Positions 8,325 to 55,327 of a DNA stretch of 64,000 nt are shown here, piece by piece. The stretch covers positions 1 through 64,000 of the forward strand of contig NZ_JALHQD010000011.1 in assembly GCF_022842145.1 (NCBI RefSeq). Reading direction: 5' to 3'. Each line of letters starts with the position of its first letter. Positions within the stretch are counted from its first letter, which is position 1. Position numbers and translations under genes: made by a program. The notes beneath the pieces were generated by a model, which was not told the DNA's origin, did not search any database, and saw only the letters and a program-made list of their open reading frames with translations. The DNA is from Tabrizicola sp. (GTDB lineage: Bacteria > Pseudomonadota > Alphaproteobacteria > Rhodobacterales > Rhodobacteraceae).

Positions 8325-9377
8325 TCATTTCCGCCGCGAACGGATCATGCCGGTGATGTCGTAGACCTGCTCCAGGATCGGCCTTGCAAGGGCGTCGGCG
8401 CGGTCAGCCCCGTCGGCCAGGATGCGGTCGATCTCGGCCGGGTCAGCCATCAGGCGGTTCATCTCGGCGGTGATGGGCGAAAGCTTGGCCACCGCAAGAT
8501 CGGCCAGCGCGGGCTTGAAGATGCCGAACTGGGCGCCCGCGAAATCCTGGACGACCTGGTCGACGGAATGGCCGGACAGGGCGGCGTAGATGTTGACCAG
8601 GTTCCGCGCCTCCGGTCGGTCCTTCAGGCCCTCGACGCTGTCCGGCAGTGGTTCGGGGTCGGTCTTGGCCTTGCGGATCTTGGCGGCGATGGCGTCGGCG
8701 TCGTCCGTGAGGTTGATGCGCGACTGATCGGACGGATCGGACTTCGACATCTTCTTGGTACCGTCGCGCAGCGACATGACGCGGGTGGCCGCACCTTCGA
8801 TCAGCGGATCGACCACCGGGAAGAAGTCCACCCCGTAGTCGTTGTTGAACTTGATCGCGATGTCGCGGGTCAGCTCCAGGTGCTGCTTCTGGTCTTCGCC
8901 CACCGGGACCATCGTGGCGTGGTACGCAAGGATGTCGGCGGCCATCAGCGCAGGGTAGGCATATAGCCCCAGCGAGACGTTCTCGGAGTTCTTGCCCGCC
9001 TTGTCCTTGAACTGGGTCATGCGGCTCATCCAGCCCATGCGCGCGACGCAGTTGAAGATCCAGCCCAGTTCCGCATGGGCGCTGACCTGGGACTGGTTGA
9101 ACAGGATGGACCGCTGCGGGTCGATGCCCGCCGCGATGAAGGCGGCTGCCCCCTCGCGCGTGGCGTGGCGCAGCTTGGCGGGGTCCTGCCACGTGGTGAT
9201 CGCATGCATGTCGACCAGGCAGTAGATCGTCTCGATCCCCTCGTCCTGCTTTTCGACGAAGCGTTTCAGCGCGCCAAGGTAGTTGCCCAGCGTGATCCCG
9301 CCCGAGGGCTGGATGCCCGAAAAGATGCGGGGTTTGAAGGATGTCGGCGTTTGGACCGCCGAAGCCGGGGAGGACAT
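8325..9377 (-). CDS. trpS: tryptophan--tRNA ligase
   Basis: The 350-residue protein is a class I aminoacyl-tRNA synthetase that charges tRNA-Trp in the cytoplasm. The ATP-site signature [17 protein letters not shown] (residues 21-37) stands in for the HIGH motif, and KMSKS is at residues 209-213. [16 protein letters not shown] (159-174) is the conserved tryptophan-pocket and dimer region. Length is normal for bacterial TrpS. The gene diverges from the rhomboid-like gene and ends before a clear terminator. Confidence 0.97.
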
Positions 9378-43461: not shown

Positions 43462-44094
43462 TCAAGTGTTCTTGGCGAGCGATACGCTCACGCACAAACT
43501 CCAGCGACGCGGATCAGGACAGATGTCTGGCAGGTTGTAGAGCGCTGCATTCTCGAAAAGCAGGTAGGCAGCTGCGTCGTAGGCGAGAGCCGCGAGTCGT
43601 TCAGTATGATGGTAACCAAGGTTGTAGCGAATTTCCTGGGTCGCGATGCTCGCCGCCCAGCGAACCGCACCAGAGGTCGACGTGCGCTTGATTACGCCCT
43701 TGAAGATCGAGCTTGTACCCGCCTTGGATCGCCGATTTCGCATCACTGCAGTCCGACCGATGTGGCCCGATATGTTTTCCAGTCTGCAGTCAAATGGCAG
43801 TTTATTGGCGAAGGATACCTGCTTCACCTCGTCGAGGGTCATTGTCGGATGCGCGAGAGTGAGCACGAACCTCTGCAGGGAGATTCGTCGTCCTCCAACA
43901 TCTGCAGCCGCCGCCAAGTAGTTCCCTCGAGAAAGTATCGCATACCATCGATAGCTCTTCACCTGGGTTTCAAAGCGCCTGTCGATGACTGCGTCAAGCC
44001 CGCGGCTTGTCGGGATCATGGCGTAGGTATCGGGTTGAAGGGACTCGGCCAACAACGCAATCGAAACGCGCATAAGTTCAACGGGACTTTCCAT
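43462..44094 (-). CDS. AP2-domain protein with degenerate HNH endonuclease domain
   Basis: The 210-residue protein carries a C-terminal AP2/ERF-type DNA-binding domain (about residues 129-189: SSIFKGVIKR, RWAASI, LGYHHTERLAALAYDAAAY, ALYNLP). Ahead of it, RRISLQRFVL and FDCRLENISGHIGRTAVMRN correspond to the HNH_3 fold that normally reads LHR...VDHINGD...NRRENL. The metal-binding and catalytic His positions are Gln and absent here, so nuclease activity looks lost. Base composition is clearly lower in GC than all neighbours, indicating transfer from a mobile source such as a phage homing endonuclease. Confidence 0.7.
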   Translation of the reverse strand: MESPVELMRVSIALLAESLQPDTYAMIPTSRGLDAVIDRRFETQVKSYRWYAILSRGNYLAAAADVGGRRISLQRFVLTLAHPTMTLDEVKQVSFANKLPFDCRLENISGHIGRTAVMRNRRSKAGTSSIFKGVIKRTSTSGAVRWAASIATQEIRYNLGYHHTERLAALAYDAAAYLLFENAALYNLPDICPDPRRWSLCVSVSLAKNT

Positions 44095-44155: not shown

Positions 44156-45199
44156 TTACGGGTTCGCCTCGATGGTTTCGTTCAACCACGGCACGAACTT
44201 CGAGATATTGGTGTAGGCCGAGAAAAGCGCCGTTTCCTCGCAGCCTTGGCCGGAGGTCGCGGACAGTCCCCAGCTGACGATGCCGGCCTGGATGTAGCCG
44301 CCGCCGTCGACCGGGACGACCAAGGGGCCGCCGGAATCGCCGTTGCACGAGGTCTTGCCACCCTCGAAGGTGCCGGAGCAGATCATGTTCTCGGACACGG
44401 CGTCGGGGGCCTTGGCCATCAGTTGGTCCCAGATGGCGAAGGCGTCTGCGTCGGGGACGCCGAGGGTCTGGACGGCGTAGCCGAAGCCGCCCGCCGCGTC
44501 CTCGGCGCGTGCTTCCAGCATGGACTGGTTGCAGAGCGCGCGGTCGAGGACCTGGATCTGGGCCTGGCGCAGTTCGGGCGAAGGTTGCGCGCCTTCCTGC
44601 AGGCCCCAGCCGGTGACGATGGTGGTCACCCCCTGCTGGTTGAGGATGTCGCCGTATTCGGCGTCGGGGACCTCCACCGTCTGGTAGGGCACCTGCGGCG
44701 CGCGGGAGAGCTTGATGAGGGCGATGTCGAAGTCGAACTCGGTGCCGATGTAGGACGGGTGGCGGAAGACGGCTTCGACCGGGATCAGGTCGCCCGCGCC
44801 GGGGCTGAGGGTGTTGGTGCCGACGAGGATCGATACGTCCTGCGGGGCGAGGTCGGCGAAGCTGCCGTCGTCCTGTTCCATGTGAATGCAGTGGGCGGCG
44901 GTGAGGACCCAGCGGTCCATCACCATCGAGCCGCCGCAGAACTGGGCGTCGGTGGAGACGGGCGCGCCGCCGATCAGGAGGGCCACCTGCCAGGGCCAGG
45001 CGCCGTCGGGGGCCACCTCGCCGCCGATGACTTTCGCCCCGGACTGTTCTGCCGTCTTGCCGCGTTCAGCCTTGGCGCCGGATTTTGCGAAGGCGAAGGG
45101 CGAGGCCACCGCCGGGTCGGGGGCGGCGAGTTGCGGGGCCTCGGCCATCAGGGGCGTGGCGAGGAGCGTGGCGATCAGGGCGGGTAGGAGCCGGGGCAT
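44156..45199 (-). CDS. exported S1 (trypsin-fold) serine protease with pro-region
   Basis: The 347-residue protein has a signal peptide (residues 1-19) and a pro-region to Lys56. The mature domain then opens with VIGGE and W-P-W-Q. The triad is His103 (LTAAHC), Asp158 (DFDIAL) and Ser289 (CNGDSGGP). The position equivalent to trypsin Asp189 is Thr283, so primary specificity is probably not for Lys/Arg, and it may be unable to process its own K|VIGG activation site. It ends the leftward gene set, 0 bp from the caspase gene upstream. It is predicted to be periplasmic or secreted. Confidence 0.92.
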   Translation of the reverse strand: MPRLLPALIATLLATPLMAEAPQLAAPDPAVASPFAFAKSGAKAERGKTAEQSGAKVIGGEVAPDGAWPWQVALLIGGAPVSTDAQFCGGSMVMDRWVLTAAHCIHMEQDDGSFADLAPQDVSILVGTNTLSPGAGDLIPVEAVFRHPSYIGTEFDFDIALIKLSRAPQVPYQTVEVPDAEYGDILNQQGVTTIVTGWGLQEGAQPSPELRQAQIQVLDRALCNQSMLEARAEDAAGGFGYAVQTLGVPDADAFAIWDQLMAKAPDAVSENMICSGTFEGGKTSCNGDSGGPLVVPVDGGGYIQAGIVSWGLSATSGQGCEETALFSAYTNISKFVPWLNETIEANP

Positions 45200-47152
45200 T
45201 CAGTTCTCCATCGGTGTGGGGGCGGTGTCCCCGGGGGTCAGGCGGATGATCTGGCGCAGCAGTGTCAGCGGCGCGGGTTTCAGGCTGAAGCCGCGGCTTT
45301 GCGTGTCGGGGTCGAGGCGCGGTTCCAGCCAGGCGGTCATCGGGTCTGGGGGCGTGGCGCGGGTGGTGTCGGTCGAGGCGAGGCGGGTCAGGTCGACACG
45401 GGGCGCGTCGGGGCTGGCGGGGACGGCGAGGGTCCAGATTTCCTCCAGTCCCGCCGTGCTGTCGGGTTCGATCATCAGGCCGATGCGGGTGGAGTCTCCG
45501 GGGGCGAGGCGGTTCGACAGGTTCTGCGGCGGGTAGATCGGCTGCACCTGGAAAGCGGCGGTGAAGTAGAGGACCGAGACGTCCTGCGCGGTGCCGGAGG
45601 TGTTGATGACGGTCAGCCAGAGCTGGTCGCAGGGGGCGACGCCTTGGGTCGGGTCAAAGGGTTCCGGGTCCGCCGCCTGGCCGCAGGTGCCCGTTGCGGC
45701 GCGGCGTTCGGTGGTGACGGTGAGGGGCGCCTTGCCGGTCAGGCTGCGCCCGGTGGCGCCGGCAAGCACCTTGCGGAGGGCGAGGCCGTGGGCGGCCTGG
45801 GCGAGGGTGCGGTCCAGCGCCTGCGCCTTGGTCTCACCCGGTTCGGGGCGGATGCGGGGGGTGGAGCCGGGGCCTTGCGGGTCCAGCGTGCCATCCGCAT
45901 TGGCAAGCGCGACAGTGCCCTCGGTCAGGATCGGGACAAGGTCGGGATTGGCGCCGGGGGGCGGGAGGGCGGCGGTCCAGGCGGTGTAATCCTGCCCGTC
46001 GTCGGGTTGGGCGCGGACCGGGGCGGCAAGGGTCAATGGCGCAGGGGGTGGAATGGAGAGAAGCTCGGCCCATAGTGCGGTTGCGGGCGGCGGGGCGGAA
46101 AGCACGGCCTCGCGGGCGGAGACCTTGGTGAGGGTAGCGGTGGCGAGGGGAGTGCCGCCGCTGGGGTCGGCGTAAAGCGCCAGTTCGGTGCCTTCGGCGA
46201 GACCATCGAGAAGGCCGGCGGCAAGCTTGCCGTTGGCGACGGGGAAACGCTGGGTTGCGCTGCCCTGGCCGAAGACCGGGGCGTCGAGGAGCGGGCCTTC
46301 GCCATCGGGCATCTGCCGGGCAGGCCCCTGGGCCATCGCCTCGGTGGTGGCGGTGAGGACCTGCTGCCAGGACGCATCCGGGGCGGTGCGCAGGGTTTGA
46401 GCGAGCCGCAGGGTGAACTCGCCGTGCCAGGTGCCATCCGCCATCGGATATTCGAAGGACCGCTGGTCGGACTGCGAGGAGTAGAGGAAGACGAAGTCTC
46501 CGCTGAGGGGCGGGGCGGGGGTGCCGGCGACGGGGGTGACGTCGTCGGGGATGCCGAGTTGGGCCTCGTCCAGGACCTTGGCGACCCCCTGCCCGCCCAC
46601 GGCACGAAAGCCGGTGGCGGAGTGGCAGGCGTCGATCAGGGCGACGACCTTGATGCCCTTCGAGAGGGTGGATTGTGCCCAGGCCTGCAGGTCGTCGTCT
46701 ACCAGCGCGTTTTCCACCGCGCCGATGCTGCCCTTCCAGCCAGCGGCGTCGGCGGGGAGGAGCAGCTCGTCATAGCCGCCGCCCTCGTCCCCCGAAAGGT
46801 CGGGCGCCTGGGCGCCGTGGCCGGAAAAGGTGAAGACGATGGTATCGCCCTTGGTCGAGGCGGCAGTGGCGGCGTCGAGGGCGTGGAGGATCTCGGCGCG
46901 GGTGGGTGGACCGGTGGTGGTGCCGGCGGGAAGGCCCGCGGGGTCGGAGGTGAGGACGGTGAGGTGACCCGGGTCCAAGCCGCGGAAGAGGAGCGTTTCG
47001 GCCATCAGCCGGGCATCGTTCGCGGGGCCTTTCAGGTCGGCGTCAAGAGTGAGGTAGTCGGAGACTCCGACGATCACCGCCCGGATTTCGGCATGGGTGG
47101 GCGGGGCCAGGAGGACCAGGGTCAGGGCAAAGGGGGCAAGCCAGGCGCGCAT
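45200..47152 (-). CDS. exported caspase-like (C14) protease A
   Basis: From ATG 47152 the product is 650 residues with a signal peptide (MRAWLAPFALTLVLLAPPTH). The C14 domain follows at once: VIVGVSDYL, KGPANDARLMAETL, catalytic His112 (FSGHG) and Cys176 (IDACHSATG). Its far C-terminus (CDQLWLTVINTSGTAQDVSV, FQVQPIYP) looks like a DUF4384-type beta domain. Bacterial orthocaspases usually cut after Arg or Lys. It is a paralogue of the caspase gene at 53276. The 88-codon upstream extension of the frame is low-complexity and lacks a start site. Confidence 0.9.
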   Translation of the reverse strand: MRAWLAPFALTLVLLAPPTHAEIRAVIVGVSDYLTLDADLKGPANDARLMAETLLFRGLDPGHLTVLTSDPAGLPAGTTTGPPTRAEILHALDAATAASTKGDTIVFTFSGHGAQAPDLSGDEGGGYDELLLPADAAGWKGSIGAVENALVDDDLQAWAQSTLSKGIKVVALIDACHSATGFRAVGGQGVAKVLDEAQLGIPDDVTPVAGTPAPPLSGDFVFLYSSQSDQRSFEYPMADGTWHGEFTLRLAQTLRTAPDASWQQVLTATTEAMAQGPARQMPDGEGPLLDAPVFGQGSATQRFPVANGKLAAGLLDGLAEGTELALYADPSGGTPLATATLTKVSAREAVLSAPPPATALWAELLSIPPPAPLTLAAPVRAQPDDGQDYTAWTAALPPPGANPDLVPILTEGTVALANADGTLDPQGPGSTPRIRPEPGETKAQALDRTLAQAAHGLALRKVLAGATGRSLTGKAPLTVTTERRAATGTCGQAADPEPFDPTQGVAPCDQLWLTVINTSGTAQDVSVLYFTAAFQVQPIYPPQNLSNRLAPGDSTRIGLMIEPDSTAGLEEIWTLAVPASPDAPRVDLTRLASTDTTRATPPDPMTAWLEPRLDPDTQSRGFSLKPAPLTLLRQIIRLTPGDTAPTPMEN

Positions 47153-47355
47153 GATCGGGGCAGGATATCCGTGGCGGGGCGTGGGGCAAGTGGGCCTGGG
47201 GGCGTGACGGGATTTGTCATGCGCGGTGGTGCTTTGGGGCCGGACCGGGGCCGATCCGTTGGGGTGCCTGTGCTGCCGGGGCTGGGTGCTCCTTCCCTCA
47301 CGTCGGGTTGGGACGGGTTTTGTATTGAGCGCTGACGCGCAAGTCTTTGGTCTCG

Positions 47356-47382
47356 CCGCTTTGCGTGAAGAACGCAAAGCGG
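47356..47382. repeat. intergenic hairpin
   Basis: A perfect 10-bp inverted repeat with a 7-nt loop lies 204 bp upstream of caspase A, on the patatin side. Without a T-run it is a weak terminator candidate; it could equally be part of a palindromic repeat unit. Confidence 0.6.
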
Positions 47383-47499
47383 CTCGGGTGTGCCTCCGGC
47401 GGGGATATTTGGGCAAATGTGAAAGGCGGGCGGAGTCCGCGAAGGGCGTCTGTCGCGTCTGAAGGGACGACGCCGGGTCGCGTCAAGTGAGTTCAGCGG

Positions 47500-47577
47500 C
47501 GTGCCGCGATGCCGATCTGGATGCAGGTGTGGATGTCTCTGCCGGTTAGGAAAGCGCGGGTGGCGGGAATTGTCATC
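47500..47577 (-). pseudogene. remnant of a patatin-like gene 3' end
   Basis: On the minus strand a 26-codon stretch reads FLTGRDIHTCIQIGIAARR then stop. The intact neighbour ends LAGNDVDTRIQTGIAAGGRR plus six residues. The plus strand shows the same GTTCAGCGGCGT...GATGCCG(A/G)TCTGGATGC pattern at both places. I read this as the decayed tail of a former tandem copy or a local duplication. Confidence 0.5.
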
Positions 47578-47666
47578 GGGGCAGTCGGTCGGACTCCACA
47601 TCGCCTCAGGACGGGAGGAGTGGAGGCGCCTGGGACTGGCGTGGGTCTGGAAGGGCCTTGAGTTGA

Positions 47667-49091
47667 TCAGTTCAGCGGCGTCACGCGGCGGCCGCCGGCG
47701 GCGATGCCGGTCTGGATGCGGGTGTCGACGTCGTTGCCCGCGAGCGAGGCGAGAAAACCGTTGAACTCGGGCGTCGCGCGGGTGGCTTGGCGGCCGGCTT
47801 CGATGACCATGTCGACCTGGTCGGTCGGCAGGTTCAGGCGGGTCGGGACGGCGTCGAGTCGGTCGCGCAGGGCGGTGGGGAGGGAGGCGAAGCTGGCTTC
47901 GCCGACGAAAAGCTTGACGTCCTTGCAGTCCCAGCCCTGGATCGTGCCACGCAGTTTTCGGACCTCGGGCAAAGGCAGGGCGCAGCGCCATTCGATCAGC
48001 TCGGCTTCCCACAGGCGCAATTCGCCACGCATGGAATCGTAGCCGGAGCGGGAAGCGGCGGACATGGCGGAGGTGGCGATGGACATCGCAAGGTTGACGC
48101 CACCCGGTCCGGCGACCTTCTGGGTCCAGTCGTAGTCCTTGTCGACGCCCGCATTGGCGACGAGGAACAGCATCCGCTTCAGCTTGACGGCTTCCTCGGC
48201 GGTCAGGGGGGCGTAGGGGACCTGGGCGCGGGCGCGTTCGACCGCCAGACCCGTCGTGCCAAAGTTGTCGGTGATGCCGCCATCGAGGAGTTTTACGAAC
48301 TTCACCTCGTCCGGGTTGGTGTAGCTTTCCAGCGCCCGGGCATGGGCGCGCATGGCGGCGGTGGCTTCGGGGTTGTAGCGGGCGGCGGTCAGCCAGTCGG
48401 GTTCCCGGTAGGTGCATTTGCCCTGATGGGCTTCGAGGACGATGGGCGTGAAGACCAGGGGATAGGCGGCGGAGGCGGCGACGGCTTCGGACAGCTTGAC
48501 CTTCGAGAGGTCGGAGCAGAGGGCGTCGAATGTCTCCGGGCTGAAGAGGAAGGGCGTGTTGTTCGCCATGTCGGTGGCGTTGATCCAGGTCTTGATCCGG
48601 GACCGGCGGAGGTCGGCGAAGGTGGCGCCGTGGAACAGGGTCTCGTCCAGCGTGCGGCCAAAGGTGTCGCGGCCGTTGACGCCCCCGGCGATGCCCTTGG
48701 CGATGGTCAGGGGATTCAGGCCCGAGGTGGTCATGTAGGCTTCGGCATTGGTGGTCAGGAACGCGTCACGGAAGCCGGTCATGCCTTGCGGACCGTTGAG
48801 GCCAATCTGGGCGGCCATGACGGAGCCACCCGAGACGCCGGAGACGAGGCGGACGTTATCCAGAAGGCCGTGCGGGGTCCCGGTTTCCGCGGCCCGCAGT
48901 TCTTGCAGCATCCCGTAGGCGAAAGCCGTGGCACGCATCCCGCCACCCGAGAAGGCGAGGCCGATGTAGAGGTCGTCGGCGGCTGCGCTGTCGGTGAGGG
49001 GGGCGTTCTCGCCTTGCAGGGGTTGGTTCTGCGGCGGATTCCACGGAGCGCAGCCGAAGAGGATGAGGAGAGGGAGGAGGGCGCGGCGCAT
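47667..49091 (-). CDS. patatin-like phospholipase lipoprotein
   Basis: From ATG 49091 (GGGAG upstream) the product is 474 residues with a lipoprotein signal and lipobox LFGC (Cys14). The patatin core has the oxyanion loop SGGGMRA (48-54), nucleophile Ser87 in GVSGGS and the Asp of LLDGGITDN. Patatins are acyl hydrolases acting on phospholipids; as a lipoprotein it would face the periplasm at a membrane. It lies 17 bp after the histidine kinase gene on the same strand, so it is likely in that transcript. Confidence 0.9.
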   Translation of the reverse strand: MRRALLPLLILFGCAPWNPPQNQPLQGENAPLTDSAAADDLYIGLAFSGGGMRATAFAYGMLQELRAAETGTPHGLLDNVRLVSGVSGGSVMAAQIGLNGPQGMTGFRDAFLTTNAEAYMTTSGLNPLTIAKGIAGGVNGRDTFGRTLDETLFHGATFADLRRSRIKTWINATDMANNTPFLFSPETFDALCSDLSKVKLSEAVAASAAYPLVFTPIVLEAHQGKCTYREPDWLTAARYNPEATAAMRAHARALESYTNPDEVKFVKLLDGGITDNFGTTGLAVERARAQVPYAPLTAEEAVKLKRMLFLVANAGVDKDYDWTQKVAGPGGVNLAMSIATSAMSAASRSGYDSMRGELRLWEAELIEWRCALPLPEVRKLRGTIQGWDCKDVKLFVGEASFASLPTALRDRLDAVPTRLNLPTDQVDMVIEAGRQATRATPEFNGFLASLAGNDVDTRIQTGIAAGGRRVTPLN

Positions 49092-49107
49092 CGAAGCTCC
49101 CGGAGGT

Positions 49108-50469
49108 TCAGTCCGATTGCTGCAGCCTTGGCCAGCGGATTTCAAGCGCGAAACCCTTTTCGCAGGGCGGAACGGTCAGCCTTGCGCCGTGGCGGGCGGC
49201 GATGGCGCGGACAAAGGCGAGGCCAAGGCCGTGGCCGGGGGTGGCGCGGTCACGCTCGGCACGGGTGAAGCGGTCGAAGGCCTCGGGCTTCAGGTCATCG
49301 GGCAGGCCGGGACCGGTGTCGGCGACGCGCATCAGGATGCGGTCGGTGTCAGGGGAAAGCGTCAGGGTCAGGTGGTCGCCGGGGGAGCAGTACTTGATGG
49401 CGTTGTCGAGAAGGTTCGACAGGACCTGCGCGATCAGGTTTCGGTCGCCGAGAATGTGGAGGCCGGGGGTGATGCGGGCTTCGGTCACGAGGCCCTTGTC
49501 CTCGGCCAATGCGTCGTAAAGGTCCCACACCTCGGCGGCGGTGGCGGAGAGGTCGACGGGGACAAGGCCGCCGCCGGTGCCTTGATCAGCCTCGGCCCGG
49601 CTGATGTCGAGCAGGCTGTCGAACATGCGGATCGCCTGGCGCATCTCGGCCTTGAGGTCGGCGGTGAGGTCGTCCTGGCCTTCTATGCGGGACAGCTTCT
49701 GGAGCATCCGGTTGAGCGGGGTGCGCAGCTCGTGGGCGATGGTGTCCGAAAGGCGGTGCGTGGCGCGGTTCAGGTTTTCGATGCGGTCCAGCATCGCGTG
49801 GACATGGGTTTCGAGGAGGCCGAACTCGTCGTCGGAGCGGGGGCCGGGGAGGCGGGCATCGAGTTGGCCCTCGGCAACGCGGTCGGCGAGGGTGTTGATG
49901 CGGTTGATCCGTTGCATGACGCTGCGGGCGGCGAGCCAGCCGACGAGGCTGCCCGCGAGCAGGAGGGCGCCGAGGAGGGCGAAGATGCCGCGTCTGAGGG
50001 CGGAAAGGGTGTCATCGACAGGCTGCAGGCTGCGGGCGACGAGAAGGGGGAAGCCACCCGGAAGCTCGCGCGCGACGGCGAGCCAGCGGGTTCGGTCTTC
50101 GGTGAATTCCACTACGCCCTGGCTGGTGAAGGTATCTCCGGCGGGGGCAAGCGGGGCGGGCCAATCCTTGCGGGTTCCGGCGAGGGCTGCGCCGTTGCGG
50201 TCCATCAGGAGGAGCATTTCGCCCTCCGTGGCGGCTGTGGCGCGGGTGTCGATGGCCTGGCGCAGCGCGATGATGCGGCGTTGGTCGTAAAGGGCGGCGA
50301 GGCCGTTCAGGTCGGCGGTCAGCAAGCTTTGCTGGGCGGCCATCAGGCGGGCTTCGACCAGCCGGTACTGGAGAACCATCGCACCGAGGGAAAGGAGCGT
50401 CACGGCCAACGCCATCAGGGCGGCAAGGCGCAGGGTGGCCCTTGCGGCGATTGGTCGGGTTGGCGTCAC
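49108..50469 (-). CDS. sensor histidine kinase (HAMP-HisKA-HATPase)
   Basis: The 453-residue membrane kinase has one span near residues 12-35, a periplasmic sensor region, a second span near 175-195, a HAMP domain, the H-box AHELRTPLNRML, an N-box NLLDNAIKY and DTGPGLPD. It should phosphorylate the response regulator encoded just upstream, whose stop overlaps the GTG start of this gene in a GTGA. It is embedded among exported proteases, so the signal may be envelope or proteolytic stress. Confidence 0.93.
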   Translation of the reverse strand: MTPTRPIAARATLRLAALMALAVTLLSLGAMVLQYRLVEARLMAAQQSLLTADLNGLAALYDQRRIIALRQAIDTRATAATEGEMLLLMDRNGAALAGTRKDWPAPLAPAGDTFTSQGVVEFTEDRTRWLAVARELPGGFPLLVARSLQPVDDTLSALRRGIFALLGALLLAGSLVGWLAARSVMQRINRINTLADRVAEGQLDARLPGPRSDDEFGLLETHVHAMLDRIENLNRATHRLSDTIAHELRTPLNRMLQKLSRIEGQDDLTADLKAEMRQAIRMFDSLLDISRAEADQGTGGGLVPVDLSATAAEVWDLYDALAEDKGLVTEARITPGLHILGDRNLIAQVLSNLLDNAIKYCSPGDHLTLTLSPDTDRILMRVADTGPGLPDDLKPEAFDRFTRAERDRATPGHGLGLAFVRAIAARHGARLTVPPCEKGFALEIRWPRLQQSD

Positions 50470-51170
50470 ACCGTGGTTCCGATGGGGGGTGCCGGGACGG
50501 GGGCGAAGATGTAGCCCTCGCCTCTTGCGGTCTGGATCGCGGTGGTTCCGGCTTCCTCCAGCTTGCGGCGCAGGCGACCGACGTGGACATCGACGACGTT
50601 GGTGCCGGGGTCGAAGTGCAGGTTCCAGACGTTCTCCAGAAGCTGCATCCGGGTGACGACCTGGCCTGCGTTGCGGGCGAAGTAGGTGAGGAGGTCGAAT
50701 TCCTTGGGGCTGGTCGGGACGTGGTTCCGCTTCACATGGACCGTCCGGGCCTTGAGGCGGATTTCAAGGTCGCCGAAGGCGAGGAGATCGTTGTCCAGGA
50801 CCTGGATCGTGCCCCGGCGCAGCAGGGCACGGAGGCGGGCGCGAAGCTCTTCGGGCTCGAAGGGTTTGGGGAGGTAGTCGTCGGCGCCCTTTTCCAGCCC
50901 TTCGACGCGGTTGGCGGCGCGGCCGAGGGCGGAGAGGATCAGGATCATCGCGGTCGAGCCACCGGCGCGGATGCGGGCCATCGCGTCCACCCCGTCGCCG
51001 CCGGGGAGCATGCGGTCAAGGACGATGACCTTGTAGGGCTGGGTGGTGGCGGCCTCGATCCCGCTGGCCAGCGTGTCGCGGTGGTCGGTGGCACAGCCAA
51101 GCGCCTCGGCCTCATGCCGGACGGCGGCGGCGGTCTCGGGGTCGTCTTCGATGATCAGGATGCGGTCCAT
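50466..51170 (-). CDS. OmpR/PhoB-type response regulator
   Basis: The product from ATG 51170 is 234 residues: receiver with ILIIEDDPE and VIVLDRMLPGGDG (phospho-acceptor Asp), conserved Lys in YLPKPFEPEE, and a C-terminal winged helix (TSPKEFDLLTYFARNAGQVV to VDVHVGRLRRKL). It pairs with the downstream kinase. A TTG at 51185 would overlap the DegP-like stop in a TTGA and is a possible alternative start. Likely targets are the flanking protease genes, including the divergent pair to the right. Confidence 0.93.
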   Translation of the reverse strand: MDRILIIEDDPETAAAVRHEAEALGCATDHRDTLASGIEAATTQPYKVIVLDRMLPGGDGVDAMARIRAGGSTAMILILSALGRAANRVEGLEKGADDYLPKPFEPEELRARLRALLRRGTIQVLDNDLLAFGDLEIRLKARTVHVKRNHVPTSPKEFDLLTYFARNAGQVVTRMQLLENVWNLHFDPGTNVVDVHVGRLRRKLEEAGTTAIQTARGEGYIFAPVPAPPIGTTV

Positions 51171-51181
51171 CTGGCGTCCAT

Positions 51182-52495
51182 TCAAAACACGACCACGTCG
51201 GGGTCAAGAACATTCGCCCCGCCCACCGGCCGCACGCCTTCGGGGGCGTGCCAGGGGTCAAGGCGGATGTGGCGGGTCTGCCCGCCGGGGGCTTGCAGGA
51301 GGAGAAGCGCGGGGGCGGCGAGGATGAAGATGGCCAGGTCCTGCGGGGTGCCGTTGACGGCAAGGATGCGGTCGCCTTTCGCCAGCCCGGCAAGAAGCGC
51401 GGGGGAGTTGTCGGTGAGTTTGGTGACGGTGCCTTGCGGGTCCAGCGTTACTCCGAGAGCGGCGAAGGTGTAGGCGGTGACGGTGGCCGGGGCGCGGGCG
51501 ATGTCGCGGGTGCGGAGCCCGCCGGGAACATCGGCGGTGAGGACGAGGGTGAGGGTTTGCGGCTGCCCGGCGCGGTGGATGGTGAGGTCCGCACGGCCCT
51601 TGGCGCTGGCGCGTTCGATGGCGAAGGCGAAGTCTCCGGGCTGGCGGAGGGGATTGCCTGCGGTGGCGGTGATGATGTCGCCGGGTTGCAGGCCTGCGGT
51701 TTCGGCAAGGCTGCCGGGGGCGACGGAGTCGATCAGCAGGCCCTGGGCTTTGGCGCCAAGCGTCTCGGCGATCTGGCGGTCGACGGGGCGGACGGTCAGG
51801 CCAAGCGTCGGGAAGGGTGGCAAGGTCTCATCGATGAGGCCCTGGACGATGCGCTGCAGCTCGGCGGTGGGGATGGCGTAGGCGATGCCGACGAACATGC
51901 GGCTGCCGTCGGCGATCCGGGAGTTCATGCCCAGAAGGCGGCCTTGGGCATCGACCAGCGGGCCGCCGGAGGAGCCGGGGTTCACGGCGGCATCATGTTG
52001 CAGCATGAGGATCGGGACGGCGATGTCGGTCTGCCGCGCTAGGGTGGAGATGCGCCCCTCGGTCAGGGTGAACTCCATGCCGAGGGGTGCGCCGAGGGCG
52101 AAGACTTCGTCGCCGAGTTCGGGGGCGATGGAGGCGAGTTGGAGGCCTTGGGCGGGGGTCGGCAGCGAGATCACGGCCACATCGCGGATCGGGTCGCGGG
52201 CTATGACGAGGGCGGTAAGGTCAAGACCGTGGCGGTCGATCAGTCGGATTTCCTCGGCGGTGCCGACCACGTGGGCGTTGGTGACGGCGACGGTCCCGTC
52301 GTGCCAGAGGAAGGCGGAGCCGAGGAACCTGTCTTCCGGATCGGCGGAGCGCACGGTGAAGACCTTGTCCATCGCGGCGTCGAGGGGCGAGGCGCTGGCC
52401 GGGCTGACCACCGCGACCAGCGCGAGCACCAGAAGCGCCGCCAATGCCTCGATGAACCTGAGCGGTCTTTGCCGCTTTTCCGACTGTGCCTGCAT
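51182..52495 (-). CDS. DegP/HtrA-like periplasmic serine protease with two PDZ-like domains
   Basis: The 437-residue protein from ATG 52495 has a signal anchor (residues 15-36), an S1C protease domain with His75 (TNAHVVG), Asp105 (RDVAVISL) and Ser176 (NPGSSGGPL), then PDZ domains around 230-320 (GLLIDSVAPGSLAETAGLQP) and 345-420 (VTKLTDNSPALLAGL). HtrA proteases degrade or signal on misfolded envelope proteins. It is the first gene of the leftward operon. An upstream in-frame Met at 52588 lies in the divergent promoter region and is rejected. Confidence 0.9.
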   Translation of the reverse strand: MQAQSEKRQRPLRFIEALAALLVLALVAVVSPASASPLDAAMDKVFTVRSADPEDRFLGSAFLWHDGTVAVTNAHVVGTAEEIRLIDRHGLDLTALVIARDPIRDVAVISLPTPAQGLQLASIAPELGDEVFALGAPLGMEFTLTEGRISTLARQTDIAVPILMLQHDAAVNPGSSGGPLVDAQGRLLGMNSRIADGSRMFVGIAYAIPTAELQRIVQGLIDETLPPFPTLGLTVRPVDRQIAETLGAKAQGLLIDSVAPGSLAETAGLQPGDIITATAGNPLRQPGDFAFAIERASAKGRADLTIHRAGQPQTLTLVLTADVPGGLRTRDIARAPATVTAYTFAALGVTLDPQGTVTKLTDNSPALLAGLAKGDRILAVNGTPQDLAIFILAAPALLLLQAPGGQTRHIRLDPWHAPEGVRPVGGANVLDPDVVVF

Positions 52496-52646
52496 GGAGA
52501 AAACCCTTGTTCTGCCTTGATGCGGTCTTGCTAGCGGGGCGGGCGCTGTGCGGCACGTGACAAAGGCTGTCATCTGGAATTCCTGCATTTACAGGGCCGA
52601 AGCGGGGCCGCATGTTCGGTGCAACAAAAGCCCGACGAGTATTCCC
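52496..52646. promoter_or_regulatory. divergent control region of the protease locus
   Basis: The 151-bp gap separates the leftward DegP-TCS-patatin genes from the rightward secreted-protein/caspase pair. An inverted repeat TGACA-N5-TGTCA is at 52558-52572 near its middle. It could bind the local response regulator or another dimeric regulator; core promoter boxes are not obvious. Confidence 0.45.
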
Positions 52647-53276
52647 ATGCGCCATTTCCTTGCCGTCTGCCTGATCGGCCTTGCCCTTCCCGCCTCGGCC
52701 CCCGCACTGGCCGATGTGCCGTCACCCGTGAAGGTGGCCGAGCTTTCCGCCCGGCTTTATGCAGCGGGGATGCAGGCGGGCGATCCGCTGCTGGTGCTGG
52801 CGGCGGCGAAGCTGCGCAAGGGGCTGGCCCCGGTCGCGGGGGATCGGGAGGCGGTGGGGGGCACAGCCGGTCAGGGGGCCCCGCTGTCGTGGGAGGAGAT
52901 GCTCGCCTCGGCAGCTGCGCTGGCGGGGGACGATCAGGTGGTGCTGGGGTTGATCGAGGACGCGCGGGTCGAGACGACAAAGGGCGTTGCCGCGGGGCCG
53001 GTCTACAACATCGGCAGTCTGGGCAACGGCAAGGGCGACACCTATCCGCCGATCGAGTTCCGGGGTGGGGAATATGCCGAGGTCTATGTTGAGGCGAAGG
53101 CGGCCACCAACCTGAACCTCGGCGTCTATGACGACCAAGGGCGGCTGGTCTGTTCGGACACGGACATCAGCCACATCGCCTATTGTGGCTGGACCCCGGC
53201 CAACGCGGGGAGTTTCACGCTGAAGGTGGACAACAAGGGCCCGGTGGGGGCCGAGTACGCCTTGATGACAAACTGA
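52647..53276 (+). CDS. exported protein with C-terminal PPC-like beta domain
   Basis: The 209-residue protein has a signal peptide (MRHFLAVCLIGLALPASAPA), a helical middle part (residues 25-105) and a C-terminal segment (FRGGEYAEVYVEAKAATNLN to YALMTN) resembling bacterial pre-peptidase C-terminal domains. Its stop overlaps the start of caspase B in a TGATG, so both are coupled. Such beta domains often serve as adhesion or chaperone parts of secreted proteases; here it is encoded as a separate protein, possibly a cofactor or inhibitor of the caspase. That is inference. Confidence 0.75.
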   Translation: MRHFLAVCLIGLALPASAPALADVPSPVKVAELSARLYAAGMQAGDPLLVLAAAKLRKGLAPVAGDREAVGGTAGQGAPLSWEEMLASAAALAGDDQVVLGLIEDARVETTKGVAAGPVYNIGSLGNGKGDTYPPIEFRGGEYAEVYVEAKAATNLNLGVYDDQGRLVCSDTDISHIAYCGWTPANAGSFTLKVDNKGPVGAEYALMTN

Positions 53277-55327
53277 TGAAAGCTTTTTTCACATCGGCCC
53301 TGCTTTTGACCGCCCTTCCCGCCGTGGCGCGCGAGAACTATGCGCTGCTGATCGGCGCCAACCAGTATCCGAACCTGGAGGAGCGGTGGTGGCTGAAGGG
53401 CCCGGCCAATGATGTGCAACTGGTGGCGCAGTATCTGACCACCGAGGCCCCGGTCCCCTTTGCATCCGAGAACGTGACGGTGCTGTCGGATGGAGTGGCC
53501 GGCTCGACGCCACCGACGCTGGGGGCGATCCGAGGGGCCTTTGCCGACCTGACGGCGGAGGTGCAGCCGGGGGACTTCGTCTACCTGCATTTCTCGGGGC
53601 ACGGGACGCAGGCACCGGCGCTGGACCCCGCAACGGAACTGGACGGACTGGACGAGTTGTTCCTGCCGGTGGACATCGGGCCGTGGTCGGACCAGGTGGG
53701 CGCGGTGGAAAACGCGCTGGTCGACGACGAGATCGGCGCGCTGATCGACGGGCTGCGCGCCAAGGGTGCGAATGTCTGGGCGGTGTTCGACAGCTGCCAT
53801 TCGGGGACAGCGACCCGGGCCGTGACAAGTGCCGAGGACGATGTCCGGGTTCGGCAACTGCCGCCCGAGGCGCTGGGAATCGATGTGGATGCGGTAGAGG
53901 TCAGCCGGTCGGTGGACCCCAGGGCCACCGAGGCCCCGTTCGATGGCGGCGCGGGCGAAGGGTCCTTCGTCGCCTTCTTCGCAGCCCAGACCAACGAGGT
54001 GACGCCGGAGAAGAACCTGCCCAGGGGCAAGCCGGGGCGGAAGCCGCAAGGCGTGTTCACCTGGACGCTGATGGAGACGCTGGCAGAGTACCCGAACGCG
54101 ACGTACGGGCAGTTGGGACAGGAGGTGCTGCGGCGCTATGCGGTGAAGAACCTCGCGAAATCGACACCCCTGTTCGAAGGCGATCTGGATCAGGTGGTCT
54201 TTGGTGGCGAGGGCGGTGCGCGGGTGTCGCAGTGGCAGGCCGAGGTGACGGACGCCGGTTTCACGATCCCGGCGGGGACGCTGCACGGACTGTCGGAAGG
54301 TGCGGTGCTGGCGGTGATGGGGTCGGCAGCCGCATCGGATGCCGAGGCGCTGGGGTTCGTCGAACTGACGTCGGTGGAGACCTTTTCCTCGACGGCACGG
54401 GGGGTCGAGAAGGACGGGAAGGTCCTGCCCGCCGAACTGCCGAAGGGCATCACGCTGCGCAAGCTGGACGCGGCGCTGGACTTCACGCTGACGGTGGCGC
54501 TGCCCAGGGCGGGAAGCGGGCCGGCGGATGCCTTGCTGTCGGTTCTGGCAGAGTTGCAGGCGGCGGCGGGCGCCCGGCTAAGCTTCGTCGCGCCGGACAA
54601 GGAGGCGGACCTGCGGCTGGCAGTGCTGCCGGACAGTCCGCGACCGGATGCGATCTGGGTGCTGCCCGCGACCGGATTGGCGGAGGACTTGGGGACCACG
54701 CCTTCGGTTTCCACGGGCGACAAGGACGGGGCGGACCTGGCGGCGGTGCTGGCCGATACGCTGGTGACGATGGCGCGGGCGCAGAACCTGCTGAAGCTGG
54801 CGGGCGCGGTGGGCGCGTCAAACCCGGACGTCGCCGTGGAACTTCTGACCCGCACGCCGGAAGACCGGACGCTTCGCCCCCTGCCCTTCGCCCCGGTACC
54901 GACCCTGGTGCCGGAGGACGAGGTGCATGTGCTGGCGAAGAACAACGGCGACGGGCCGGTCGATGTGAACGTGCTTTATATCGGGGCGGACTGGTCGGTC
55001 AGCCATTGGTTCTCGGGCCGCTTGCAGCCGGGGGACGAGTTGCGGAAGGGCCTGTTCAAGATCAGTGCCGATGTGCTGGGACACGAGCGGATGCTGGTCG
55101 TCGTGACACCCGCCAAGCCGCAAAGCCCGGTCGAGGATCTGAGCTACCTAGCGCAGGACGCGCTGGAGACGACGCGGGCGGTGGGCGGGACGGCTTTCGG
55201 TGCGGCACTGGCTGAGGCGGGGTTCGGGCAGACGACGCGGGGAGCGATAGCCCTGACGGATGATTCCGGTGGGGGGGCGGGGGCCGCGATCCTGACGCTG
55301 GAGCTGCGGACGGTGGCGGCGGAGTGA
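53276..55327 (+). CDS. exported caspase-like (C14) protease B
   Basis: The 683-residue protein has a signal peptide (residues 1-19) and a C14 domain with LLIGANQYPNL, KGPANDVQLVAQYL, His109 (FSGHG) and Cys174 (FDSCHSGTA). It shares KGPAND and GAVENALVDD blocks with caspase A. The middle part is of unknown fold and the C-terminus (VHVLAKNNGDGPVDVNVLYI) again looks like DUF4384. It is translationally coupled to the upstream exported protein. It should act outside the cytoplasm, unlike most defence-related caspases. Confidence 0.9.
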   Translation: MKAFFTSALLLTALPAVARENYALLIGANQYPNLEERWWLKGPANDVQLVAQYLTTEAPVPFASENVTVLSDGVAGSTPPTLGAIRGAFADLTAEVQPGDFVYLHFSGHGTQAPALDPATELDGLDELFLPVDIGPWSDQVGAVENALVDDEIGALIDGLRAKGANVWAVFDSCHSGTATRAVTSAEDDVRVRQLPPEALGIDVDAVEVSRSVDPRATEAPFDGGAGEGSFVAFFAAQTNEVTPEKNLPRGKPGRKPQGVFTWTLMETLAEYPNATYGQLGQEVLRRYAVKNLAKSTPLFEGDLDQVVFGGEGGARVSQWQAEVTDAGFTIPAGTLHGLSEGAVLAVMGSAAASDAEALGFVELTSVETFSSTARGVEKDGKVLPAELPKGITLRKLDAALDFTLTVALPRAGSGPADALLSVLAELQAAAGARLSFVAPDKEADLRLAVLPDSPRPDAIWVLPATGLAEDLGTTPSVSTGDKDGADLAAVLADTLVTMARAQNLLKLAGAVGASNPDVAVELLTRTPEDRTLRPLPFAPVPTLVPEDEVHVLAKNNGDGPVDVNVLYIGADWSVSHWFSGRLQPGDELRKGLFKISADVLGHERMLVVVTPAKPQSPVEDLSYLAQDALETTRAVGGTAFGAALAEAGFGQTTRGAIALTDDSGGGAGAAILTLELRTVAAE

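Follow-up and report, generated by a model that had tools for sequence, protein, structure and literature searches.

The window, the stretch of DNA analysed here, comprises positions 1 to 64,000 of contig C11 (C11:1-64000, 64,000 nucleotides) of an 18-contig, 4.33 Mb genome of a Tabrizicola sp., whose closest named relatives are Tabrizicola and other Rhodobacteraceae. Eight genes at 44156-55327 encode a trypsin-fold S1 protease (S1), two caspase-like proteases (CaspA and CaspB), a patatin-like lipoprotein (Pat), a sensor histidine kinase (HK), an OmpR-type response regulator (RR), an HtrA-like protease (HtrA) and a protein with a PPC-type domain (PPC). They belong to a cassette, conserved among Rhodobacter relatives, that includes its own sensor-regulator pair, and this pair appears to govern the exported proteases and the lipase encoded with it. 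All eight frames are open, and the families assigned to them in a preliminary description of this DNA were borne out by Pfam and, for PPC, by a fold search. S1 matches Trypsin (E-value 7e-46), the two caspases Peptidase_C14 (5e-24 and 2e-17) and Pat the Patatin family (5e-17); HK has HAMP, HisKA and HATPase_c domains, RR combines Response_reg with Trans_reg_C, and HtrA joins Trypsin_2 to PDZ in two stretches. PPC belongs to no Pfam, NCBIfam or PADLOC family; its structure model (mean predicted local distance difference test, pLDDT, 89.8) is helical towards the N-terminus and forms a PPC-type jelly roll at the C-terminus; Foldseek matches the jelly roll to Tk-SP (E 4.5e-6), to the collagen-binding/PPC domains of collagenases and to the periplasmic lysozyme inhibitor PliG (4.5e-4).

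The probable starts of CaspA, Pat, RR, HtrA, PPC and CaspB, as tabulated, lie slightly off those given before. Because of the gene spacing, with short gaps (11 bp between HtrA and RR, 16 bp between HK and Pat), overlaps (RR with HK, PPC with CaspB) and an abutting stop and start (CaspA and S1), the arrangement suggests three operons, HtrA-RR-HK-Pat, CaspA-S1 and PPC-CaspB. The six non-regulatory proteins look exported, as had been proposed, a call made by eye and, for Pat, from a lipobox pattern found in 44 of 46 orthologues.

Table 1. Genes and putative operators of the cassette (window coordinates)
Feature	Position	Strand	Description	Basis
S1	44156..45199	-	exported trypsin-fold protease zymogen (by inspection); activation site K56|V57; residue 189 = Thr	Pfam Trypsin
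CaspA	45200..47152	-	exported (by inspection) caspase-like protease; stop abuts S1 start	Pfam Peptidase_C14
Putative operator before CaspA	47204..47220	-	ATGACAAATCCCGTCAC	box model
Pat	47667..49091	-	patatin-like lipoprotein	Pfam Patatin, lipobox pattern
HK	49108..50469	-	sensor histidine kinase with periplasmic domain	domain matches
RR	50466..51170	-	OmpR-type response regulator; alternative start 51185	
HtrA	51182..52495	-	exported or anchored protease (by inspection), two PDZ domains; alternative start 52588	
Putative operator in HtrA/PPC divergent promoter	52557..52573	+	GTGACAAAGGCTGTCAT	box model, held-out test
PPC	52647..53276	+	exported (by inspection); helical N-terminal part and PPC-type jelly roll	structure model, fold search
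CaspB	53276..55327	+	exported (by inspection) caspase-like protease; start overlaps PPC stop	

Whether these genes stay together or occur independently in relatives was checked in named genomes, using the best 80 loci of 298 matched stretches, a choice that over-represents close relatives; kinase matches below 40% identity were excluded from the gene-order counts. The host names among these best 80 loci are Tabrizicola, Fuscovulum, Rhodobacter, Xinfangfangia, Cypionkella, Pseudorhodobacter, Szabonella, Pseudogemmobacter, Shimia, Sulfitobacter, Oceaniglobus, Thalassovita and Pseudooceanicola. In 62 loci the sequence reaches 9.3 kb or more upstream of CaspB, and in every one of them PPC is the direct neighbour of CaspB. 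HtrA, RR and HK are kept beside PPC-CaspB in 60; CaspA is found in 53, S1 in 52 and Pat in 44. The whole gene order is retained in 36 of the 62 and the order minus Pat in 13 more. Judged by this comparison, the eight-gene locus is a real conserved unit. In two genomes CaspA-S1 has been relocated, to 1.6 Mb from CaspB in G034 and to 0.2 Mb in G121, where the CaspA match holds one in-frame stop. In G161 (L082) the S1, CaspA, Pat and CaspB genes are fragmentary and HK, RR and HtrA partial, with the flanking MFS and FAD genes whole; the cassette genes may be decaying jointly there, or the damage may, at least in part, be sequencing error.

The flanks are less constant. On the left, the FMN oxidase and ALDH genes are common to close relatives only, and the right-hand FAD-oxidase gene also lies near CaspB in several other genera (e.g. 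L131, L133, L135, L148 and L160) and near none of the CaspB genes in the Shimia, Oceaniglobus or Thalassovita loci. When 597 neighbouring frames were clustered, one more member proved to keep its position from genus to genus, a multicopper oxidase present in six loci. Beside S1, a 210-residue frame without a Pfam match (43462-44094, minus strand) resembles an HNH/AP2-type endonuclease by eye and is matched in L118 only among the 80 loci.

Several of the 80 loci are the same records as genomes in the family and order sets, in which up to 7 candidates per genome were scored for CaspB, 3 with alignment, and 19 for RR. CaspB matches at E <= 1e-20 in 12/149 genomes of the family; in the genus it is present in 26/32, the host's own counted in both; one of the 12 (G073) has a 37% match and none of the other cassette genes within 20 kb. 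An alignment search at 1e-100 placed CaspB in 27/390 genomes of the order, from 17/139 genera, and at 1e-60 it was found in 2/385 genomes across the class. The sole class match outside the family (G890) has CaspB-like (36%) and PPC-like (28%) genes only, in 19 kb and with no box of the kind described below. The partner genes follow this distribution closely. S1 (E <= 1e-60) was found in 7/149 family genomes, all with CaspB (Fisher p = 3e-9), Pat in nine, eight of them with CaspB (p = 9e-10), and RR in 11, ten of them with CaspB; the Pat exception (G085) is 41% identical and has none of the other cassette genes within 19 kb, and the RR exception is G087. Within the genus, the 26 CaspB carriers include 25 with Pat and 23 with S1, and the six genomes lacking CaspB have neither. 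Orthologues of S1 and Pat are hardly found outside genomes that carry the cassette.

The divergent promoter between HtrA and PPC contains an inverted repeat that resembles an operator, ATGACAAA-N2-C-N-GTCAT, and copies of it precede CaspA and additional PPC genes. The HtrA/PPC intergenic regions have a CACATGACAAAGGCCGTCATG-like sequence in common, and a model built from them recovered second copies before CaspA. As the pattern TGA[CA]AA-N5-GT[CT]A, counted on both strands so that a perfect palindrome scores two, the box has 73 occurrences in the HtrA-PPC intergenic regions (28,959 bp), 44 before CaspA (16,200 bp) and 23 elsewhere in the 80 loci (1,434,543 bp). The pattern, which overlooks degenerate boxes (8/75 HtrA-PPC regions), is present in 67/75 HtrA-PPC regions and 43/54 CaspA upstream regions. 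Of the 23 occurrences elsewhere, 17 (at 16 places) have an extra PPC-like gene no more than 562 bp away; a further one precedes PPC in a locus truncated by the contig end, four fall inside genes of the cassette and the last is found 26 bp beyond CaspB.

The first box model was trained on sites picked by eye, and 12/400 random windows, boxes unmasked, scored at least 14 with it, which led to masked counts and column-permuted control models. A model built from 18 sites of close relatives served for a held-out test at a threshold of 12 bits. It detected the box in 50/57 other HtrA-PPC regions and 44/54 CaspA upstream regions; upstream of the remaining genes the counts were 0/44 for Pat, 0/63 for HK, 1/70 for RR, 0/80 for CaspB, 1/33 for S1, 0/16 for MFS and 1/25 for FAD. 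Permuted models gave a mean of 0 to 0.6 per group, with a maximum of 6 in one run. The box is also present in L186 and L192, where its apparent lack came from misplaced PPC starts, and the relocated CaspA-S1 pairs (L041 and L042) still have it.

The box also travels with the regulator. In L153 (Fuscibacter oryzae) and L190, Pat-PPC-CaspB is kept and HtrA-RR-HK is gone, and there is no box at PPC; the genome holding the L190 stretch (G020) gave no RR match at 1e-60 with 19 of 43 candidates scored. In L153 a short stretch between Pat and PPC (9061-9174) looks like the remains of a kinase gene and seems to mark the site where HtrA-RR-HK was lost together with the operator. Conversely, G087 (L216) has RR and HK orthologues (59 and 50% identical) with a box just before RR, and none of the other cassette genes in the 15 kb covered on that contig, which begins 255 bp before RR. 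The phospho-acceptor residues are intact throughout (RR Asp 70/70, HK His 65/65). RR probably binds the box and activates transcription from it. Because the box is common to the HtrA/PPC, CaspA and extra PPC promoters and is lost with RR-HK, the comparison supports one two-component regulon of exported hydrolases.

A scan of the host's own genome allowing up to two mismatches found 28 sites, as compared with one for the backwards control. Eight differ from the pattern at one position or none. Two of these are the operators of the locus, and a third (C11:75382) stands 88 bp before a 274-residue PPC paralogue (C11:75486; operator and paralogue together C11:75382-76307, L110 11382-12307), roughly 20 kb to the right of CaspB. 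The frame directly before this operator also resembles a PPC end. The five remaining sites lie mostly in or on frames, and a wide regulon is not claimed: C10:81288 is inside a 1636-residue frame, C5:91591 falls within a patatin-like frame, C1:645709 is on the start of a further frame, C1:703575 inside an apparent J-domain and C8:150485 upstream of a LuxR-like frame, the patatin, J-domain and LuxR names having been given by eye. A two-mismatch box at C9:823-839 (L001) lies about 50 bp before another, third caspase gene of about 1120 residues.

Active-site residues were tallied over the 80-locus set and the window, excluding proteins shorter than 85% of the window protein. S1 has both features of an S1A protease, a catalytic triad (51/51) and a zymogen activation site, whose P1 residue is Lys in 33 and Arg in 18; in L186 the residue after P1 is Gly. 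In chymotrypsin numbering, residue 189 is Thr in 46, Gly in two and Val, Leu or Ser in one each, never Asp, and residue 226 is Ser in all 51, so that the S1 pocket does not look suited to cleavage after Lys or Arg. The His-Cys dyad that characterizes C14 metacaspases and orthocaspases is present in the p20 domain of CaspA (53/53) and CaspB (74/74). Both caspases match metacaspases in sequence (best E 4e-15 and 1e-12), and the CaspB structure model matches them by fold. Metacaspases cleave after Arg/Lys, and the pocket proposed for TbMCA2 includes Cys92, Asp95, Ser156 and Asp211, according to the available text of PMC4357240. By a correspondence drawn from alignments to yeast and plant metacaspases, TbMCA2 itself not being aligned, both Asp residues are kept in 127/127 proteins and the Ser in 53/53 CaspA and 71/74 CaspB, and cleavage after Arg/Lys is predicted for both enzymes. 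With a Lys/Arg at the S1 activation site, an S1 pocket lacking Asp189 and caspases that keep the metacaspase pocket, it is plausible that CaspA or CaspB activates the S1 zymogen. Pat retains its catalytic Ser and Asp in 47/47 orthologues. HtrA, whose triad is intact in the window and in 64/67 proteins, has the trypsin-like domain, His-Asp-Ser triad and PDZ domains of an HtrA/Do protease, with a Do-family NCBIfam score of 216.6 that is below the cut-off of 416.2.

Several regulatory systems offer points of comparison. The CssRS/CutRS-HtrA systems of Streptomyces likewise place HtrA-family proteases that handle extracytoplasmic misfolded protein under two-component control; CutR differs in its core targets (htrA3 and htrB), its box (TAWATAAA) and a pair of conserved cysteines in its sensor, as far as the text available for PMC12802291 goes. 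The cassette adds two caspases, an S1 zymogen, a patatin lipoprotein and PPC proteins, and has another box and a sensor without conserved Cys. With two-component HtrA envelope-stress regulons it shares a conserved box at the htrA promoter, to which binding by the regulator is predicted. CusSR/HprSR-MsrPQ of E. coli is similar in regulator type, half-sites and care of periplasmic proteins; its CusR/HprR box is CATTACAAAATTGTAATG, of 18 bases, compared with a CATGACAAAGGCCGTCATG-like box of 19 bases in the cassette, and MsrPQ repairs oxidised methionine, whereas the cassette targets are hydrolases (available passages of PMC9302797). The box and the regulator thus resemble the CusR/HprR type at the sequence level. 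Operon surveys of metacaspases and orthocaspases report caspase homologues to be abundant in Alphaproteobacteria, in varied operons, some with proteolysis domains, and 20 operons with more than one; the cassette, its regulator and its operator are not described in the parts of these surveys that were available (PMC3501461, PMC6426788). No description of the cassette was found by title, abstract or passage in the literature, of which subscription papers were thinly covered.

On balance, the probable reading is a dedicated two-component regulon for envelope damage, whose function is most likely envelope-damage proteolysis. HK would sense a periplasmic condition, and RR would bind the inverted repeat TGACAAA-N2-C-N-GTCA and drive the three operons, htrA-RR-HK-pat and PPC-caspB diverging from one shared operator and caspA-S1 having its own. 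The products would work in the periplasm or at the outer membrane, where HtrA may hold or degrade damaged protein, the caspases, as predicted Arg/Lys cutters, may activate the S1 zymogen at its K/R site, and S1, with its non-basic pocket, would widen cleavage; the patatin lipoprotein would hydrolyse membrane lipids, and the PPC proteins may be partners or tethers. Copper or an oxidant is the leading guess for the signal because of the box and of the multicopper oxidase, which lies between HtrA and PPC in L137-L140, L147 and L149 with one box on each side (its identity was checked by Pfam on two of the six); misfolded exported protein is the alternative.

Several observations weigh against this reading or parts of it. 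Patatin is absent near the cassette in 18/62 loci and CaspA in 9/62, and in L140 and L147, where the CaspA-S1 unit is inverted, the held-out test found no box before it. In three of 67 HtrA proteins (L180 and L181, from Oceaniglobus, and L187) His, Asp and Ser are all lost with the gene still in place, which suggests that it is kept for a non-proteolytic, PDZ-based role. A basic activation residue is usual in the S1 protease family and is therefore weak evidence for a caspase activator. As to the signal, the oxidase occurs in only 6/80 loci, and the host's own copy (C1:374463) has no listed box nearby. RR and HK find their best family matches among heavy-metal models, with scores of 162.7 of 279.2 bits and 178.6 of 292.55 bits that are below the curated (CusRS/CzcRS) cut-offs, and across 65 sequences no Cys or His in HK sensor residues 30-185 is conserved above 40%, Met being partly conserved; a strict heavy-metal sensor reading was set aside on these grounds.

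A more specific and tentative version gives the caspases the leading part: two kinase-induced orthocaspases would activate the co-operonic S1 outside the cytoplasm through cleavage after Lys/Arg, with HtrA (a pseudoprotease in some genomes) and PPC for scaffolding or targeting and the patatin as a membrane arm. If true, it would give bacteria an equivalent of a zymogen cascade, located outside the cytoplasm and serving envelope clean-up rather than suicide.

Suicide itself is rather unlikely; in that reading, under stress from phages, predators or cell density, the kinase would set off a proteolytic cascade and a lipase, which would lyse the cell from its envelope side. Caspase, trypsin-like and patatin enzymes do stand together here, the same superfamilies as in the anti-phage systems modelled in PADLOC, and among the eight proteins there are matches to its generic caspase, phospholipase effector and protease models, each as a single protein only. 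However, unlike those systems, the cassette proteins look exported by inspection and are paired with a two-component system. A small PADLOC test of 10 neighbouring frames, not all of them certain to be genes, found no defence system: one frame matched HTH (helix-turn-helix) regulators, and there was one weak match to a flavin enzyme; a defence-island reading was set aside on the same results. Two-component systems and HtrA are not usual parts of caspase/trypsin/patatin defence modules, which also counts against self-destruction.

It is likewise improbable that the enzymes are released from the cell, in response to nutrients or contact, to feed it by breaking down prey, competitors or polymers. 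The signal sequences seen by inspection and the occurrence of PPC-type domains in secreted proteases such as collagenases and Tk-SP would fit, but the lipobox pattern of the patatins speaks against it, and HtrA with its PDZ domains and the type of RR point to the periplasm. A mainly copper-responsive system, in which the proteases clear copper-damaged proteins, would be a narrow form of the envelope-damage regulon; the heavy-metal family of RR and HK, the likeness to the CusR/HprR box (available text of PMC9302797) and the boxes shared by the oxidase in six loci speak for it, yet with the sub-threshold scores, a sensor devoid of a conserved metal ligand pattern and 74/80 loci without the oxidase at the HtrA-PPC place it is a doubtful proposition. 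A chance cluster of unrelated exported enzymes, to which the absence or displacement of Pat and CaspA-S1 in some genomes might point, is contradicted by the conserved order, the co-occurrence and the shared box and is barely credible.

The preliminary description had read the locus as an envelope proteolytic cascade around a two-component system, acting in death, predation response or envelope remodelling. Its conserved unit held up, its co-regulation is inferred from the shared operator and its cascade is plausible; among its options the evidence leans to envelope remodelling or stress. The role of bacterial caspase homologues beyond defence is largely open, and here two caspases are fixed in a set of apparently regulated, exported enzymes, with an explicit putative operator and a candidate cleavage site in S1 (K56|V57). 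Many hosts are in culture, Tabrizicola aquatica RCRI19 (L124) and Tabrizicola soli (L126) among them, so that the signal, the function and the order of the cascade are directly testable. If true, the envelope-damage reading would add a protease-and-lipase kind of envelope-stress regulon to the biology of a large family of aquatic bacteria.

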